From Rhodoferax sp. (GTDB lineage: Bacteria; Pseudomonadota; Gammaproteobacteria; Burkholderiales; Burkholderiaceae_C): a stretch of 38,781 nt of DNA. Below are positions 34,715-38,781 of this stretch, piece by piece. Made by a program: the position numbers and the translations under genes. The stretch spans positions 1 through 38,781 of the forward strand of contig JARLJH010000045.1 of the NCBI GenBank assembly GCA_031291305.1, read 5' to 3'. Within the stretch, counting starts at the first letter, position 1, and each line of letters begins with the position of its first letter. Under the pieces are notes generated by a model. The model saw only the letters and a program-made list of their open reading frames with translations. It did no database searches and was not told the origin of the DNA.

Positions 34715-35470
34715 TCAATATTGAATGATCGGCATCTTGGGCAGGCCACTGGGATTGCCAGGCTTCATCGGATGACAGACACCAAAAATCAAAGCCAATC
34801 GGGCATCCACATCAATGGCAATTTCAGACAGCAATTCGAGCTTTTCATCGGACAAAACGTTGTCTTCTGGCCATGCACACAGTGCCTTGTCGCGTTGATC
34901 CAGCAACTGTCGCAATTCTTCTCGGTAAAGGTGGGCCAACGATTCGATGACCGTATCGACAGCCTAGTTGCCGGTGTCGAGCTTCATGTCGGCCAGCAGC
35001 TCGTACGACAGACCCGCACTTAGCATCCTGTCGCCTGTCACCCAACTATTGACGGTAAAGAGCGTCGTCGGGATGCCCTTCGCGTCAAAGCCGGTACTCA
35101 GGAGATGGCGTGTGTTTTCGGCAACCGCTGGCCCGCCAGTCAACTTTGCAAACTCAATTTCGCGGGCCGACCTGAGCCTTCGAGCCCACAGCTTGCGCCG
35201 CGCGAACAGGTGGATATGGCCGTGCTCGGATACTGCGGGCCGATCTTGCGGCGAATGCGAGTGGTAGAACCAATGAAAGCCACTGGCCCGGTCGATCGCA
35301 TCGTCCTCAGGATAGTGGCTCCACTGCTTTGGCATCTGACCGCCCAGCAAATCCACGAACAGGTGGGCGCCCTGCTCCGCCAGGCCCGCGTAGGTTTCAA
35401 GCAGACGCAAGCCGACCGCCTTCTCGCCGCCGTCTATTGGCGGTAAGGTTCGATGACCGGACCCAGCCAT
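34715..35470 (-). pseudogene. DUF6969-like His-rich protein split by an in-frame amber codon
   Basis: The ATG at 35470 overlaps the stop of the Cys-repeat peptide gene (TGATG), so the pair is translationally coupled. The frame runs 168 codons to a TAG at 34966-34964, then continues in the same frame for 82 more codons to 34715. The first part carries a His-rich stretch: FHWFYHSHSP, then EHGHIHLFARR, then FTVNSWVTGD. The second part has LYREELRQLLDQRDKAL and KLELLSEIAIDV. Both parts together fit my memory of the DUF6969 family, so the TAG breaks one protein. The clustered histidines could bind metal. Function is unknown. The gene is either dead, makes a shortened protein, or is read through. 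Confidence 0.6.
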
Positions 35471-35670
35471 CAGTTCTTCGGCGCGCACTTCGGCATGCAT
35501 TTGGTGGCACATTTCGGAGAGCACTTGCCAGCGCACTTCGCGCAGCACTTCGACATTCCGGCCTTGGGCGCGCACTCGGCGCCCTCCTTCATGTCTTGGG
35601 CGGCTGCGGGCAAGGCAAGGGTTGCGGCGGTCAGGGCCGCCAGAGATGCCATCTTGAAACGTGAGTTCAT
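35470..35670 (-). CDS. Exported cysteine-repeat peptide (xxKC tandem repeats)
   Basis: A 66-residue precursor. A signal peptide, MASLAALTAATLALPAAAQ after a short basic start, should be cleaved to release a mature peptide of roughly 40 residues. That peptide has eight cysteines. It contains six consecutive tetrapeptides of form xxKC (for example AGKC, SPKC, MPKC) and ends APKN. The composition suggests binding of a soft metal such as copper, or a thiol sink. It is not one of the DUF2282 bufferins by sequence but is similar in style to the low-complexity Cys peptides processed by DUF692 enzymes. An AAGGAA ribosome binding site and an ECF-type promoter precede it, and the coupled gene behind it may act on it. 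Confidence 0.75.
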   Translation of the reverse strand: MNSRFKMASLAALTAATLALPAAAQDMKEGAECAPKAGMSKCCAKCAGKCSPKCATKCMPKCAPKN

Positions 35671-35720: not shown

Positions 35721-35752
35721 CTAAGAGGCTGCGGCAACCCCATCGGGTTCGC
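35721..35752 (-). promoter_or_regulatory. ECF-type promoter motif, copy 1 (Cys-peptide operon)
   Basis: On the minus strand GCGAACC, 18 nt, CTCTTAG. Identical elements with identical spacing precede two other units in this locus. CTCTTAG is about 50 nt upstream of the Cys-peptide start codon. Confidence 0.75.
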
Positions 35753-35878
35753 GGCCATGTAAAAAGAGTTTGAATCAGCACCTAATGTGGCGAAATGTCG
35801 AATGGAACGTGCGGTCTTTGCGCAAATCTGTAAGAAAAACGGCCTTCGGACGACCAACCAAAAAATATTTCATCCGCC

Positions 35879-35910
35879 GCGAACCGTTTTGGTCGCCCGC
35901 CGCCTCTTAG
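35879..35910 (+). promoter_or_regulatory. ECF-type promoter motif, copy 2 (thioredoxin operon)
   Basis: GCGAACC, 18 nt, CTCTTAG, ending 24 nt before the start of the small exported protein. The preceding TATTTCATC and following GTTTTG are also shared with copy 3. The rest of the 35671-35934 gap holds only this and the divergent copy 1. Confidence 0.75.
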
Positions 35911-35934
35911 CGGTAGAACCACAAAAGGATCGCC

Positions 35935-36147
35935 ATGCCCAAACTCTTGATTACCCTGCTCGCCACCGCCTTGACTGCCTTTGCCGCCCCGACTGCCTTT
36001 GCGGCGAGCGATCCCGGAGCCCAAATCACCCGCCCAGCTGGCTACAAGCCGATGGCAGCCAAGCCATTACCTTGGAATTCCAAGGAACTCGCAGGGCTCG
36101 CAGCTTATCTATTGACCGTTCAAAAAACTTTCAAACCGTCCCATTAA
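35935..36147 (+). CDS. Small exported protein resembling a cytochrome c tail without haem motif
   Basis: A 70-residue precursor with a signal peptide ending near AFAAS. The mature part ends in KELAGLAAYLLTVQK, which looks like the last helix of a class I cytochrome c (the usual xxELAxLAAYLxxL pattern), but no CxxCH is present. It may be a shrunken cytochrome or a convergent helix. AAGGA precedes the ATG. It is first in the unit with the thioredoxin and CcdA-like genes. Confidence 0.6.
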   Translation: MPKLLITLLATALTAFAAPTAFAASDPGAQITRPAGYKPMAAKPLPWNSKELAGLAAYLLTVQKTFKPSH

Positions 36148-36164
36148 CCACAAGGAGTCTTCCC

Positions 36165-36551
36165 ATGAAATTCACCAAAACCACTGCGCTGGTCGCCCTG
36201 TCCTGTCTGATGTCCTTGGCGACAGCCGGAGACATCAAACCGTTCAACCAGCAAGACTTCGACAAGCTCACCCACGAAGGCAAACCTGTGGTGCTGGACA
36301 TCAGCGCGACGTGGTGCCCGACCTGCAAGGCGCAAAAGCCCATCATTGACGGTCTCATGAAGCAGCCTGACTACAAGGACGTGACCCTCATGACCATCGA
36401 CTTCGACTCGGCCAAGCCCACACTCAAAAAATTCAAGGTGACCATGCAAAGCACGTTGGTCGCCTTCAAGGGCGACAAGGAAGTGGGCCGCTCTGTGGGC
36501 GACACCACGCCCAACGGCCTTGAAGGACTCATCAAGAAAACGGTCAACTGA
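36165..36551 (+). CDS. Periplasmic thioredoxin-family protein
   Basis: A 128-residue protein with a signal peptide (cleavage near ATA-GD) and a thioredoxin fold. The redox motif WCPTC is at residues 50-54, with VVLDISAT before it. The position usually held by the cis-proline reads MQSTLVAFKG, i.e. serine in place of proline; I recall the same in other CcdA-linked thioredoxin-like proteins. AAGGAG precedes the ATG at 36165. Its stop overlaps the start of the CcdA-like gene, so it probably receives electrons from that membrane protein and reduces periplasmic thiols. Confidence 0.88.
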   Translation: MKFTKTTALVALSCLMSLATAGDIKPFNQQDFDKLTHEGKPVVLDISATWCPTCKAQKPIIDGLMKQPDYKDVTLMTIDFDSAKPTLKKFKVTMQSTLVAFKGDKEVGRSVGDTTPNGLEGLIKKTVN

Positions 36552-37279
36552 TGGCGTTCGGACTCGGCTCCTACGGCTTCGGGTTCTTGGCCGGGCTTCT
36601 TTCGACGCTCTCGCCTTGCGTGCTGCCAATCATCCCCATTCTGCTGGGGTCCGCCACAAATACCCACCCGCGAGCGCCGTTAGTCTTAGCTGGCGGGCTC
36701 GCCATCTCCTATGCCGTTATCGGCACGGGACTGGCTTGGGCCGGTTCCGCCTTGGACTTGGACACGTCGATATTCCGAAACGTTGGCGCTGTCATCCTTG
36801 GACTTCTGGGCCTCGTGCTGATATCGGGCAGCCTGCAGCAACGTTTCGCTTCGGCCACCTCTGGCATCGGAGACGCGGGCAACCATCTGATTTCGCAAAT
36901 GAACCTCGATGGCCTGTGGGGCCAGTTCGCCATCGGCCTTGTGCTGGGTGTCGTATGGAGCCCCTGCGTTGGGCCAACCTTGGGCGCGGCTGTGGTTCTT
37001 GCCAGCCAAGGAGTGAATCTGCCGCAGGTCGCGCTTCTAATGGGCGTGTTTGGCATCGGGGCTGCATTCCCGGTGGTGGCACTCGCGTATGTCAGCCGCA
37101 GTGCCATGACAAAGATGCGCAGCAAGCTGATGCAGGCCGGAAAGACCGGCAAGATGCTGCTTGGCATCATCATGATTGCCTTGGCGGCCATGATCTTGTC
37201 CGGGGCAGACAAACCGGTCGAATCCTGGCTGGTTGACCACTCGCCCGCTTGGCTCACCCAATTGACAACACGCTTCTAA
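36551..37279 (+). CDS. CcdA/DsbD-like membrane thiol-reducing protein
   Basis: A 242-residue protein with about six helices. Two conserved Cys-Pro motifs, SPCVLP (21-26) and SPCVGP (137-142), lie in helices 1 and 4 as in the DsbD membrane domain and CcdA. These cysteines carry electrons from cytoplasmic thioredoxin to a periplasmic acceptor. It begins on the last base of the thioredoxin stop codon (TGATG), so the neighbour is its probable partner. A frameshifted gene follows. Confidence 0.9.
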   Translation: MAFGLGSYGFGFLAGLLSTLSPCVLPIIPILLGSATNTHPRAPLVLAGGLAISYAVIGTGLAWAGSALDLDTSIFRNVGAVILGLLGLVLISGSLQQRFASATSGIGDAGNHLISQMNLDGLWGQFAIGLVLGVVWSPCVGPTLGAAVVLASQGVNLPQVALLMGVFGIGAAFPVVALAYVSRSAMTKMRSKLMQAGKTGKMLLGIIMIALAAMILSGADKPVESWLVDHSPAWLTQLTTRF

Positions 37280-37301
37280 TTCCGTTATCAGCACATCTAT
37301 C

Positions 37302-37576
37302 GAAAGGATTTTCAGTGAAGACGGATCAGGGCACTTTGTCTTGATGGTTCGACGCGAAGGCAACGTCGCCTACATCAAATGGACCGTACGCGCGATCTTT
37401 CTCCCGGGCAAGGATGGCAAGCCCGTGCTCAACGACAACGGCTTCTGGGAAGTGGTCTCACAGGCACCGGCAGCTTCAAGGGTCTCAAGGGTGCGGGAAC
37501 CCTGCACATCAAATTGTCCAATCCGACCGACCGCATCTTTATCCTTGATGGCAATCTGGTTGCCGCCCAGCCCTAA
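37302..37576 (+). pseudogene. Frameshifted remnant of a small beta-rich protein
   Basis: The first frame reads ERIFSEDGSGHFVLMVRREG and on to NGFWEVV, near 37456. The sequence then makes sense only in another frame: TGTGSFKGLKGAGTLHIK through ILDGNLVAAQP and TAA at 37574. A small insertion (possibly CA) explains the switch. No start codon or signal peptide is found upstream. The GTGSFKGLKGAGTL pattern resembles small DUF3224/dirigent-like barrels, but that is a guess. It lies between the CcdA-like gene and the next ECF promoter. Confidence 0.55.
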
Positions 37577-37609
37577 ACCAAACACGGCAACATGTTTATT
37601 TCATCATCC

Positions 37610-37641
37610 GCGAACCGTTTTGCAAGCCTGCCACCTCTTAG
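37610..37641 (+). promoter_or_regulatory. ECF-type promoter motif, copy 3 (sigma-factor operon)
   Basis: GCGAACC, 18 nt, CTCTTAG, followed 46 nt later by the DUF2892-type gene and then the sigma factor, so the sigma factor may activate its own synthesis. Confidence 0.75.
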
Positions 37642-37687: not shown

Positions 37688-37894
37688 ATGTTCTACGTTA
37701 AAAATGTCCCTACCTGGGAACGCATTCTTCGCATCGTCATGGGCCTGATGGCTCTGGGCTTTGCAGCCTTGAACTGGGGCTCGCCCTGGGCCGTTGGCGC
37801 TGGTGTCATGGGCGCTATGTTGTCGATGACGGGCCTCTTCGGTTTCTGCCCGATGTGTGCCATGGTCGGGCGCAAGCTCGACAAGGGCGCGTAA
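37688..37894 (+). CDS. Small DUF2892-type membrane protein
   Basis: A 68-residue protein with two transmembrane helices (about 10-28 and 33-52) separated by a short turn. It starts FYVKNVPTWERILRIVMG and ends GFCPMCAMVGRKLDKG. This is the DUF2892 (YgaP-like membrane) pattern, with two cysteines in CPMC near the C-terminus. AAGGAG lies 8 nt before the ATG. It is separated by only 2 nt from the sigma-factor gene. A role as membrane sensor or regulator for the sigma factor is possible because no anti-sigma gene is adjacent, but it is not shown. Confidence 0.75.
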   Translation: MFYVKNVPTWERILRIVMGLMALGFAALNWGSPWAVGAGVMGAMLSMTGLFGFCPMCAMVGRKLDKGA

Positions 37895-37896
37895 CG

Positions 37897-38451
37897 ATGT
37901 CTGCCAGCGGAATCGTCGAAAGGGACGGTTTGATCCTTGCCGCACAGACAGGCGACCCCGCCGCCATCGGCAGACTGCTATCGGTCTGCCAGGCCGACGC
38001 CCGCCGCTACGCCCGCAGGCACTGCCAAGTGAGTGACGTGGACGATGCCGTCCAAGAGTCGCTCTTGGTCATATCCAGAAAGGTCGGGGGCCTGAAAGCC
38101 GCCGCCGCCTTCTCCTCTTGGCTTTTCACAGTCATCAAACGGGAATGCCGCAAGCTCGAACGCATGATGTTCAAAAGTGACGAGTTTGACGAGGACAAGG
38201 CCGAGCACCAACTGCTTTGCAAGACGGACAACGACCTGCGGATTGACTTGGCAGCAGCGTTGGAATCGCTACCCGCGCACTACCTTGAAGTGGTGCTGCT
38301 TCGAGATTTCGAAGAGCTCACCATCGCCGAGATTGCCGAACGCCTTGGCGAGCAGGACGGCGCCATCAAAAGCCGCCTGCACCGCGCCCGAGAGCTGGTG
38401 CGCGAATACATGGTTGGCCCTTTTACAAAGCATGCGATGGTTACCAAATAG
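37897..38451 (+). CDS. ECF-type RNA polymerase sigma factor
   Basis: A 184-residue sigma factor. Region 2 covers roughly residues 15-85, with DVDDAVQESLLVISRKVGG and FSSWLFTVIKREC. Region 4 has LPAHYLEVVLLRDFEELTIA followed by EIAERLGEQDGAIKSRLHRA, the helix-turn-helix that reads the -35 element. The start at 37897 lies 2 nt after the DUF2892-type gene; an AAGGG-like sequence precedes it. No anti-sigma factor follows. Three identical promoter motifs in the surrounding 2 kb make a local regulon likely. Confidence 0.9.
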   Translation: MSASGIVERDGLILAAQTGDPAAIGRLLSVCQADARRYARRHCQVSDVDDAVQESLLVISRKVGGLKAAAAFSSWLFTVIKRECRKLERMMFKSDEFDEDKAEHQLLCKTDNDLRIDLAAALESLPAHYLEVVLLRDFEELTIAEIAERLGEQDGAIKSRLHRARELVREYMVGPFTKHAMVTK

Positions 38452-38642: not shown

Positions 38643-38781
38643 ATCGAGATAGGAAGAAGCCTCACGGCCCCTCCCTCTCACACCACCGGACATACGGGTC
38701 ACGTATCCGGCGGTTCCTTGAAACTTTGTTGATCTCATGCTGCCTTGGCCCTCGCCAATTCGGGCAGCCCCATTTGACGAA
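38643..38781 (-). mobile_element. Group II intron, 3' end (domains V and VI), truncated by window edge
   Basis: On the minus strand GAACCGCCGGATACG and CGTATGTCCGGTGGT form the bulged domain V hairpin (38716-38680), followed by a domain VI-like stem (GGAGGGGCCGTGAGGC, then CTTCTTCCTATCTCGAT) with a bulged adenosine and the usual C-G-A-T end at 38643. Upstream sequence to the window edge should be the intron's domain IV or the end of its reverse transcriptase gene, which is not seen. Confidence 0.75.

Follow-up and report, generated by a model that had tools for sequence, protein, structure and literature searches.

Three identical promoter-like repeats around an ECF sigma factor gene of Rhodoferax sp. 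suggest a small autoregulated regulon with conserved sigma2 cysteines

Which protein reads three identical copies of GCGAACC-N18-CTCTTAG that stand close together on one contig of Rhodoferax sp., and what signal would control that reader? The 38,781-nucleotide stretch analyzed here in full (contig JARLJH010000045.1, hereafter the window) carries one copy before each of three operons, one of which encodes an extracytoplasmic function (ECF) sigma factor. A first-pass annotation of this DNA had taken the arrangement for an autoregulated local sigma regulon, and comparison across genomes favors that proposal through the sites found upstream of homologous sigma genes, the recurring targets, and the occurrence of the motif in sigma-bearing genomes. 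In our explanation, the ECF sigma factor would read all three sites. It would transcribe its own DUF2892-sigma operon, which amounts to positive feedback, together with two other operons, a divergent one encoding an exported Cys-repeat peptide along with DUF6969 and another encoding cytochrome c, thioredoxin, and CcdA. Control would most likely proceed without a classical anti-sigma factor, metal or thiol oxidation being sensed by cysteines of the sigma2 domain (C31, C43, and C84, with the neighbors H42 and E83) and/or by a CPxC membrane protein encoded on the same mRNA. We regard this explanation, taken as a whole, as probable. An autoregulated ECF regulon is a known kind of system; the promoter, the lack of a recognized anti-sigma factor, and the conserved sigma2 cysteines are new to us.

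All three copies match the motif exactly (Table 1), and no match occurred in 100 dinucleotide-preserving shuffles. Hundreds of genome-wide matches had been named in advance as grounds for abandoning the idea; in the whole genome (4,984,719 bases), only the three window sites matched with zero or one mismatch. Fourteen additional places matched with two mismatches, and a reversed-pattern control gave more (32). Nine of the 14 were fetched, and a 45-column motif profile derived from the loci of other genomes gave each of them less than 5 bits. The distance from motif to start codon is 50 nucleotides for copy 1, 24 for copy 2, and 46 for copy 3. The flanking bases that had been reported as common to copies 2 and 3 are indeed shared (TATTTCATC, then CCGCGAACCGTTTTG), and such flanks are kept across 122 sites in other loci. 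The wider consensus consists of an A/T-rich stretch, CC, GCGAA(C/T)C(G/c)TTTTG, and then CCTCTTAG. Conservation extends to columns that had not been selected, namely, the C preceding CTCTTAG (92%), T at spacer positions 2 to 4 (70–78%), and the A/T-rich stretch upstream. Ordinary ECF promoters have the form AAC-N16-18-CGTC; AAC-N18-CCTC resembles this form and is therefore read as a variant ECF promoter, in which the −10 element CCTCTTAG can be read as CGTC-like with one base changed. The motif thus differs from the usual GGAAC/GTC pattern, as had been noted, but it keeps the AAC core of the ECF −35 element and is a variant rather than something alien.

For comparison, we used the best 80 of 240 relatives of the sigma factor from public genomes and further sigma loci from 3 of 60 genomes and 14 of 399 genomes of the order (our own genome counted in). 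The redundant loci L144 and L152 were excluded from the upstream-site scan, the DUF2892-adjacency count, and the target assignment, whereas the near duplicates L014/L018 and L050/L051 were retained in all three. In the 1000 bases preceding the sigma ATG, the best site with an 18-base spacer had at most two mismatches over 14 positions in 69 of 92 loci (0, 1, and 2 mismatches in 27, 22, and 20 loci, respectively), and the other 23 loci had three (9), four (7), five (5), or six (2). Markov-resampled controls (n = 1840) reached two mismatches in 0.27% of cases and never fewer, and each of eight alternative spacer lengths yielded 0 or 1 locus. The mismatch count rose as sigma identity fell (Spearman −0.38, p = 2e-4, relatedness uncorrected). 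Exact GCGAAYC-N18-CTCTTAG sites numbered 39 and occurred in 21 of 34 distinct sigma-bearing genomes by our own tally of the listed rows (36 handles, two of which repeat a genome); 38 of them stood beside the sigma gene, and the remaining one lay on another contig (G445, contig 36). In the 30 genomes without a sigma match, exact sites were absent, and sites with one mismatch numbered 13, in eight genomes. Judged from such sequence comparison, the three window sites are almost certainly promoters of the adjoining ECF sigma factor.

The sites also recur before the same kinds of genes. In 104 loci (1.10 megabases; the first 86 loci, ten more, and eight from our own genome, L153–L160), we found 136 sites with two or fewer mismatches, 125 of which stood at most 420 bases upstream of a gene belonging to one of five kinds of recurring target: DUF2892 or sigma (68), the Cys peptide (26), cytochrome c/thioredoxin (22), the bufferin precursor BufA (7), and a DUF3224-like protein (2). 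The 11 sites outside this rule include the window's own copy 3 (L158), two sites more than 600 bases before the thioredoxin gene (L040 and L048), and one before a DUF6789-sigma operon (L080); three two-mismatch sites look like chance (L091, L097, and L098), and the remaining four are in L045, L061, L081, and L090. Loci L052 and L056 each unite a bufferin operon, Cys peptide-DUF6969, and DUF2892-sigma, and in two Undibacterium genomes (L141 and L142) the DUF3224-like operon is an unlinked target. The products of such a regulon would act in the envelope on thiols and thiophilic metals, or on reactive sulfur.

The sigma factor matched only the Sigma70_r2 and r4_2 domains and scored above the cut-off of TIGR02937, which places it among the ECF (group IV) sigma factors; the putative AAC-core promoter before its own operon, in the 69 loci counted above, agrees with this placement. 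Its best relative of solved structure was Escherichia coli sigma-E (2.7e-18). The alignments (96 sigma rows and 74 DUF2892 rows) include near duplicates or redundant rows and the window itself. C43 and C84 were present in all 96 sigma sequences and C31 in 94, the two exceptions having Thr; among 39 aligned sigma factors, E83 was invariant and H42 nearly so. These invariant cysteines, the only conserved ones in the protein, stand among varied neighboring residues. In E. coli sigma-E, the residues aligned with C31, C43, and C84 are Y, V, and A, and three of four sigma paralogs from our own genome could be aligned and had Cys at none of the covered positions. A structural model (mean pLDDT, the predicted local distance difference test, 79; pTM, the predicted template modeling score, 0.50) places the three cysteines within helices 21–43 and 66–92. 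What comparison strongly supports is the motif itself, the constant length of its spacer, its association with the sigma factor, the recurrence of the targets, and the conservation of the cysteines. As to signal and sensing chemistry, we infer that the regulon would answer to thiophilic metals or thiol stress and that the sigma factor or its CPxC partner would be the sensor. It is unlikely, in our estimate, that the sigma factor is instead active whenever it is made, with structural cysteines and purely transcriptional control by another regulator. No recognized anti-sigma factor was seen, which agrees with such control, and ECF groups proposed to work in this way are listed in the passages used here of a review (PMC8999054), but autoregulation by itself supplies no input, the cysteines are invariant amid varied neighbors, and no second conserved element appeared beyond the A/T-rich stretch, none having been sought.

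The first-pass annotation had also stated that no anti-sigma gene adjoins the sigma gene. None was recognized: no anti-sigma family was present among the 25 of 67 families listed for 52 of 74 downstream neighbors of sigma or among the matches of ten selected sigma neighbors. The statement needs a rider, however, because a CPxC membrane protein adjoins sigma in 77 of 93 loci. DUF2892 stands directly upstream of sigma in 72 of these 93, and the CPxC motif is present in 73 of 74 aligned DUF2892 proteins, the remaining one being an incomplete translation; a DUF2892 paralog elsewhere in our own genome has GFCALY and no CPxC. In L050, L051, L054, L058, and L062 (two of which are nearly identical), its place beside sigma is taken by another small membrane protein, which carries CPAC or CPVC and bears little or no resemblance to DUF2892. 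The small CPxC membrane protein could be a sensor or an inhibitor. A stronger version, which we consider possible but rather doubtful, makes DUF2892 a true membrane anti-sigma factor that holds sigma at the membrane and frees it when the CPxC motif is oxidized or binds metal. The upstream position of its gene, the CPxC motif typical of the sigma-linked set, the substitute CPxC proteins of the five loci, and the invariant M1, K5, E11, and R15 near its N terminus all speak for this role. By contrast, anti-sigma genes usually lie 3' of the sigma gene, the protein family search of the window detected no anti-sigma domain, and sigma factors of the 16 loci with neither protein still keep C43 and C84.

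Several observations weigh against the explanation given at the outset. Initiation by the sigma factor at these sites is inferred from comparison. Fourteen of 92 loci have no upstream site better than four to six mismatches, the same as the controls; in four of these (L027, L031, L045, and L092), sigma lies directly behind ccdA, and the rest are unexplained, including a sigma gene on an E. coli plasmid (L096), whose locus has no recognizable motif (no profile hit) and whose product has Thr at the C31 position. No CPxC neighbor was found in 16 of 93 loci (the flank is incomplete in L086 and L092), an unrecognized or distant anti-sigma factor may exist, and the sigma2 cysteines may be structural. 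The paralog check is thin, covering C84 in three sequences and C43 in two of them but leaving C31 uncovered. The poor sites would also suit a repeat that is the binding site of some other regulator rather than a promoter of sigma. We hold this to be very improbable because the motif is non-palindromic and directional with a fixed 18-base spacer and an AAC core, start codons in the window follow it by 24 to 50 nucleotides, and exact copies accompany sigma and are absent from the 30 genomes without it.

A putative promoter of the ECF sigma factor also precedes the operon of the exported Cys-repeat peptide and DUF6969, a little-known pair. A search of 398 proteobacterial genomes gave 22 DUF6969 matches in 20 genomes, and in 16 of the 22 loci, the window included, an exported Cys-repeat peptide (repeats NPCAAK, KCGAKC, CAAKKP, and similar) is encoded beside it on the same strand; no such peptide was seen beside DUF6969 in the other six (L161, L163, L164, L166, L168, and L171). 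An FGE-sulfatase-like gene stands beside DUF6969 in L163, and similar-looking open reading frames (ORFs) precede it in L164 and L166. A repeat-pattern scan of 123 loci (1.20 megabases, 50 DUF6969 regions) found 39 ORFs near DUF6969 and two elsewhere, one of them still inside a DUF6969 locus; most of these loci were picked through sigma, and the sample is therefore not independent. The pattern missed the peptides of L043, L074, and L173–L176, which were detected otherwise. In three scanned proteins (L165, L169, and, from a sigma locus, L078), the repeats are joined to a SoxA/TsdA-type cytochrome c domain. Our own genome has a second DUF6969-peptide pair (L176, G000:C52:31844), with no motif of zero or one mismatch outside the window. 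DUF6969 has six invariant His residues in 25 sequences and a predicted structure with a pLDDT of 91, for which no convincing match was found among the solved structures in the PDB. It may be a maturation or loading enzyme for the Cys-repeat peptides. One extended version of the scheme, to which we give only tentative credence, combines these points: the sigma factor would be a one-component sensor whose sigma2 site (C31, H42, C43, E83, and C84) switches sigma by taking up a thiophilic metal or by becoming oxidized, the CPxC membrane protein would be a redox partner replacing the anti-sigma factor, and the main effector would be a new class of exported Cys-repeat peptides matured or loaded by DUF6969.

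Bufferins, which are MNIO-modified copper peptides, offer a parallel: in the passages of PMC12452194 used here, they are exported Cys-containing peptides with a partner enzyme, and some are fused to cytochrome c. The likeness lies in an exported Cys peptide with a partner protein, but the partner in the window is DUF6969 and not DUF692, so that the operon is not a bufferin cluster of a DUF2282 precursor and a DUF692 enzyme. No DUF2282 match was found in the genome; no DUF692 search of the genome was made. The signal might also be reactive sulfur (persulfide or thiosulfate) rather than metal, although we think this fairly unlikely. The SoxA/TsdA-type cytochrome domain suits it, as do DUF6969-peptide pairs that adjoin a sulfur-transport gene (L177 and L180) and a rhodanese gene (L177) and the identity of DUF2892 with the membrane domain of YgaP, whereas bufferin operons, described as copper-sequestering in the same source, carry the same promoter in seven loci.

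The nearest systems in the passages of the cited papers used here have an anti-sigma factor, except for CorE (PMC10304878, PMC3420878, PMC8999054, and PMC7907618). In Caulobacter SigF-NrsF and Bradyrhizobium EcfF-OsrA (ECF16), as these sources describe them, a DUF1109 anti-sigma gene is adjacent and the signal is an oxidant or heavy metal (PMC3420878 and PMC6180224); genes for a sigma factor and NrsF also occur in Buf1 bufferin clusters (PMC12452194). Our system resembles ECF16 SigF/EcfF in its small regulon and EcfF in its putative autoregulation. As for DUF1109, the 25 of 67 families listed for the 52 of 74 downstream neighbors do not include it, our own contig ending 330 bases past sigma. 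The system differs in its sites, which depart from the EcfF promoter GTAAC(g,a)-N14-15-(t,c)CG(t,a) (PMC3420878). They likewise depart from the promoter given for ECF29 (Sinorhizobium meliloti RpoE8), GGGAAC / GCATCCAA (PMC6180224). Neisseria sigma-E/MseR and Haemophilus RpoE2/HrsE drive a four-gene operon that includes DoxX, along with genes for envelope repair (PMC7907618); the likeness is one of description, not sequence, and those systems have a small co-transcribed anti-sigma factor (HrsE, 67 residues), whereas none was recognized here. In Cupriavidus metallidurans, the genes rpoQ-rsqA lie beside the copper- and gold-induced gigPABT operon, again an ECF sigma gene adjoining an operon; as far as the passages of PMC10304878 used here go, initiation of gig transcription by RpoQ is unsupported and, unlike here, rsqA is a putative anti-sigma gene. 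Myxococcus CorE and CorE2 are metal-responsive ECF sigma factors that act via cysteines without an anti-sigma factor (PMC8999054, in the part used here). Unlike CorE, our sigma factor has its conserved cysteines in sigma2 and lacks the C-terminal Cys-rich extension of the CorE-like group (former ECF44), the protein ending about 15 residues past the last sigma4 match (166–170 of 184).

The signal input of ECF sigma factors without anti-sigma partners is largely an open question. The present case is widespread and compact; because its promoter is defined, its targets are few, and its cysteines do not vary, the question becomes testable by single point mutants. One regulator would link bufferins with the pair of DUF6969 and the exported Cys-repeat peptide, and the promoter is possibly orthogonal, for synthetic use.

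Table 1. Promoter copies and genes of the putative sigma regulon in the window
Feature	Position	Strand	Evidence
Promoter copy 1, Cys peptide-DUF6969 operon	35721–35752	−	Exact match; profile 40.1 bits
Promoter copy 2, cytochrome c-thioredoxin-CcdA operon	35879–35910	+	Exact match; profile 53.2 bits
Promoter copy 3, DUF2892-sigma operon (putative autoregulation)	37610–37641	+	Exact match; profile 53.4 bits
DUF6969 gene, 5' part, ends at 168 residues	34964–35470	−	PF22308, 4.2e-37
Exported Cys-repeat peptide, 66 residues, 8 Cys	35470–35670	−	ORF, homologs found
Cytochrome c gene, damaged	35935–36147	+	Comparison with L017
Thioredoxin-like protein, signal-like N terminus	36165–36551	+	PF00085, 1.2e-14
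CcdA/DsbD_TM thiol electron transporter	36551–37279	+	PF02683, 2.1e-14
DUF3224-like exported protein remnant	37315–37576	+	Comparison with L017
YgaP-like/DUF2892 membrane protein, GFCPMC motif	37688–37894	+	PF11127, 1.7e-18
ECF sigma factor, 184 residues, C31/C43/C84 in sigma2	37897–38451	+	Sigma70_r2, r4_2; TIGR02937

The operons are as the first-pass annotation had named them, with two amendments: the first gene of the thioredoxin-CcdA operon is one for cytochrome c, which is damaged, and the Cys peptide, itself borne out, is followed by a DUF6969 gene with an in-frame stop. In translation, this TAG is at 34964–34966 and the same frame stays open further, to 34718, and the search of genomes for DUF6969 likewise gave one TAG here; most full-length DUF6969 relatives have 203–243 residues. 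The stop codon of the peptide, for which no Pfam or NCBIfam family was matched, overlaps the DUF6969 start. Relative to L017, the reference for gene damage, the cytochrome c gene has a 213-base in-frame gap and has lost the heme motif, and the DUF3224-like remnant has two gaps and a 2-base insertion. An intact cytochrome c relative matches SoxA/TsdA and MauG-type cytochrome c, and an intact DUF3224-like relative gives a weak PF11528 match under the cut-off. Three regulon target genes are thus damaged, whereas those for thioredoxin, CcdA, DUF2892, and sigma and all three promoters look intact; the regulon may be decaying in this genome, or the assembly may be in error.

The distribution of the sigma factor is patchy, as the 14 of 399 genomes of the order indicate. 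Among the matches listed, a 66%-identical sigma factor is present on plasmids of Klebsiella, Salmonella, Escherichia, Citrobacter, and Providencia, and on the E. coli plasmid pYDC637 (L096), typed as conjugative, a bufferin operon lies 8 to 11 kilobases from the sigma gene. In Rhodoferax, the contig ends together with the window, and a group II intron end (RF00029, 38.8 bits against a gathering score of 40) lies near this end, at 38643–38715 on the minus strand.
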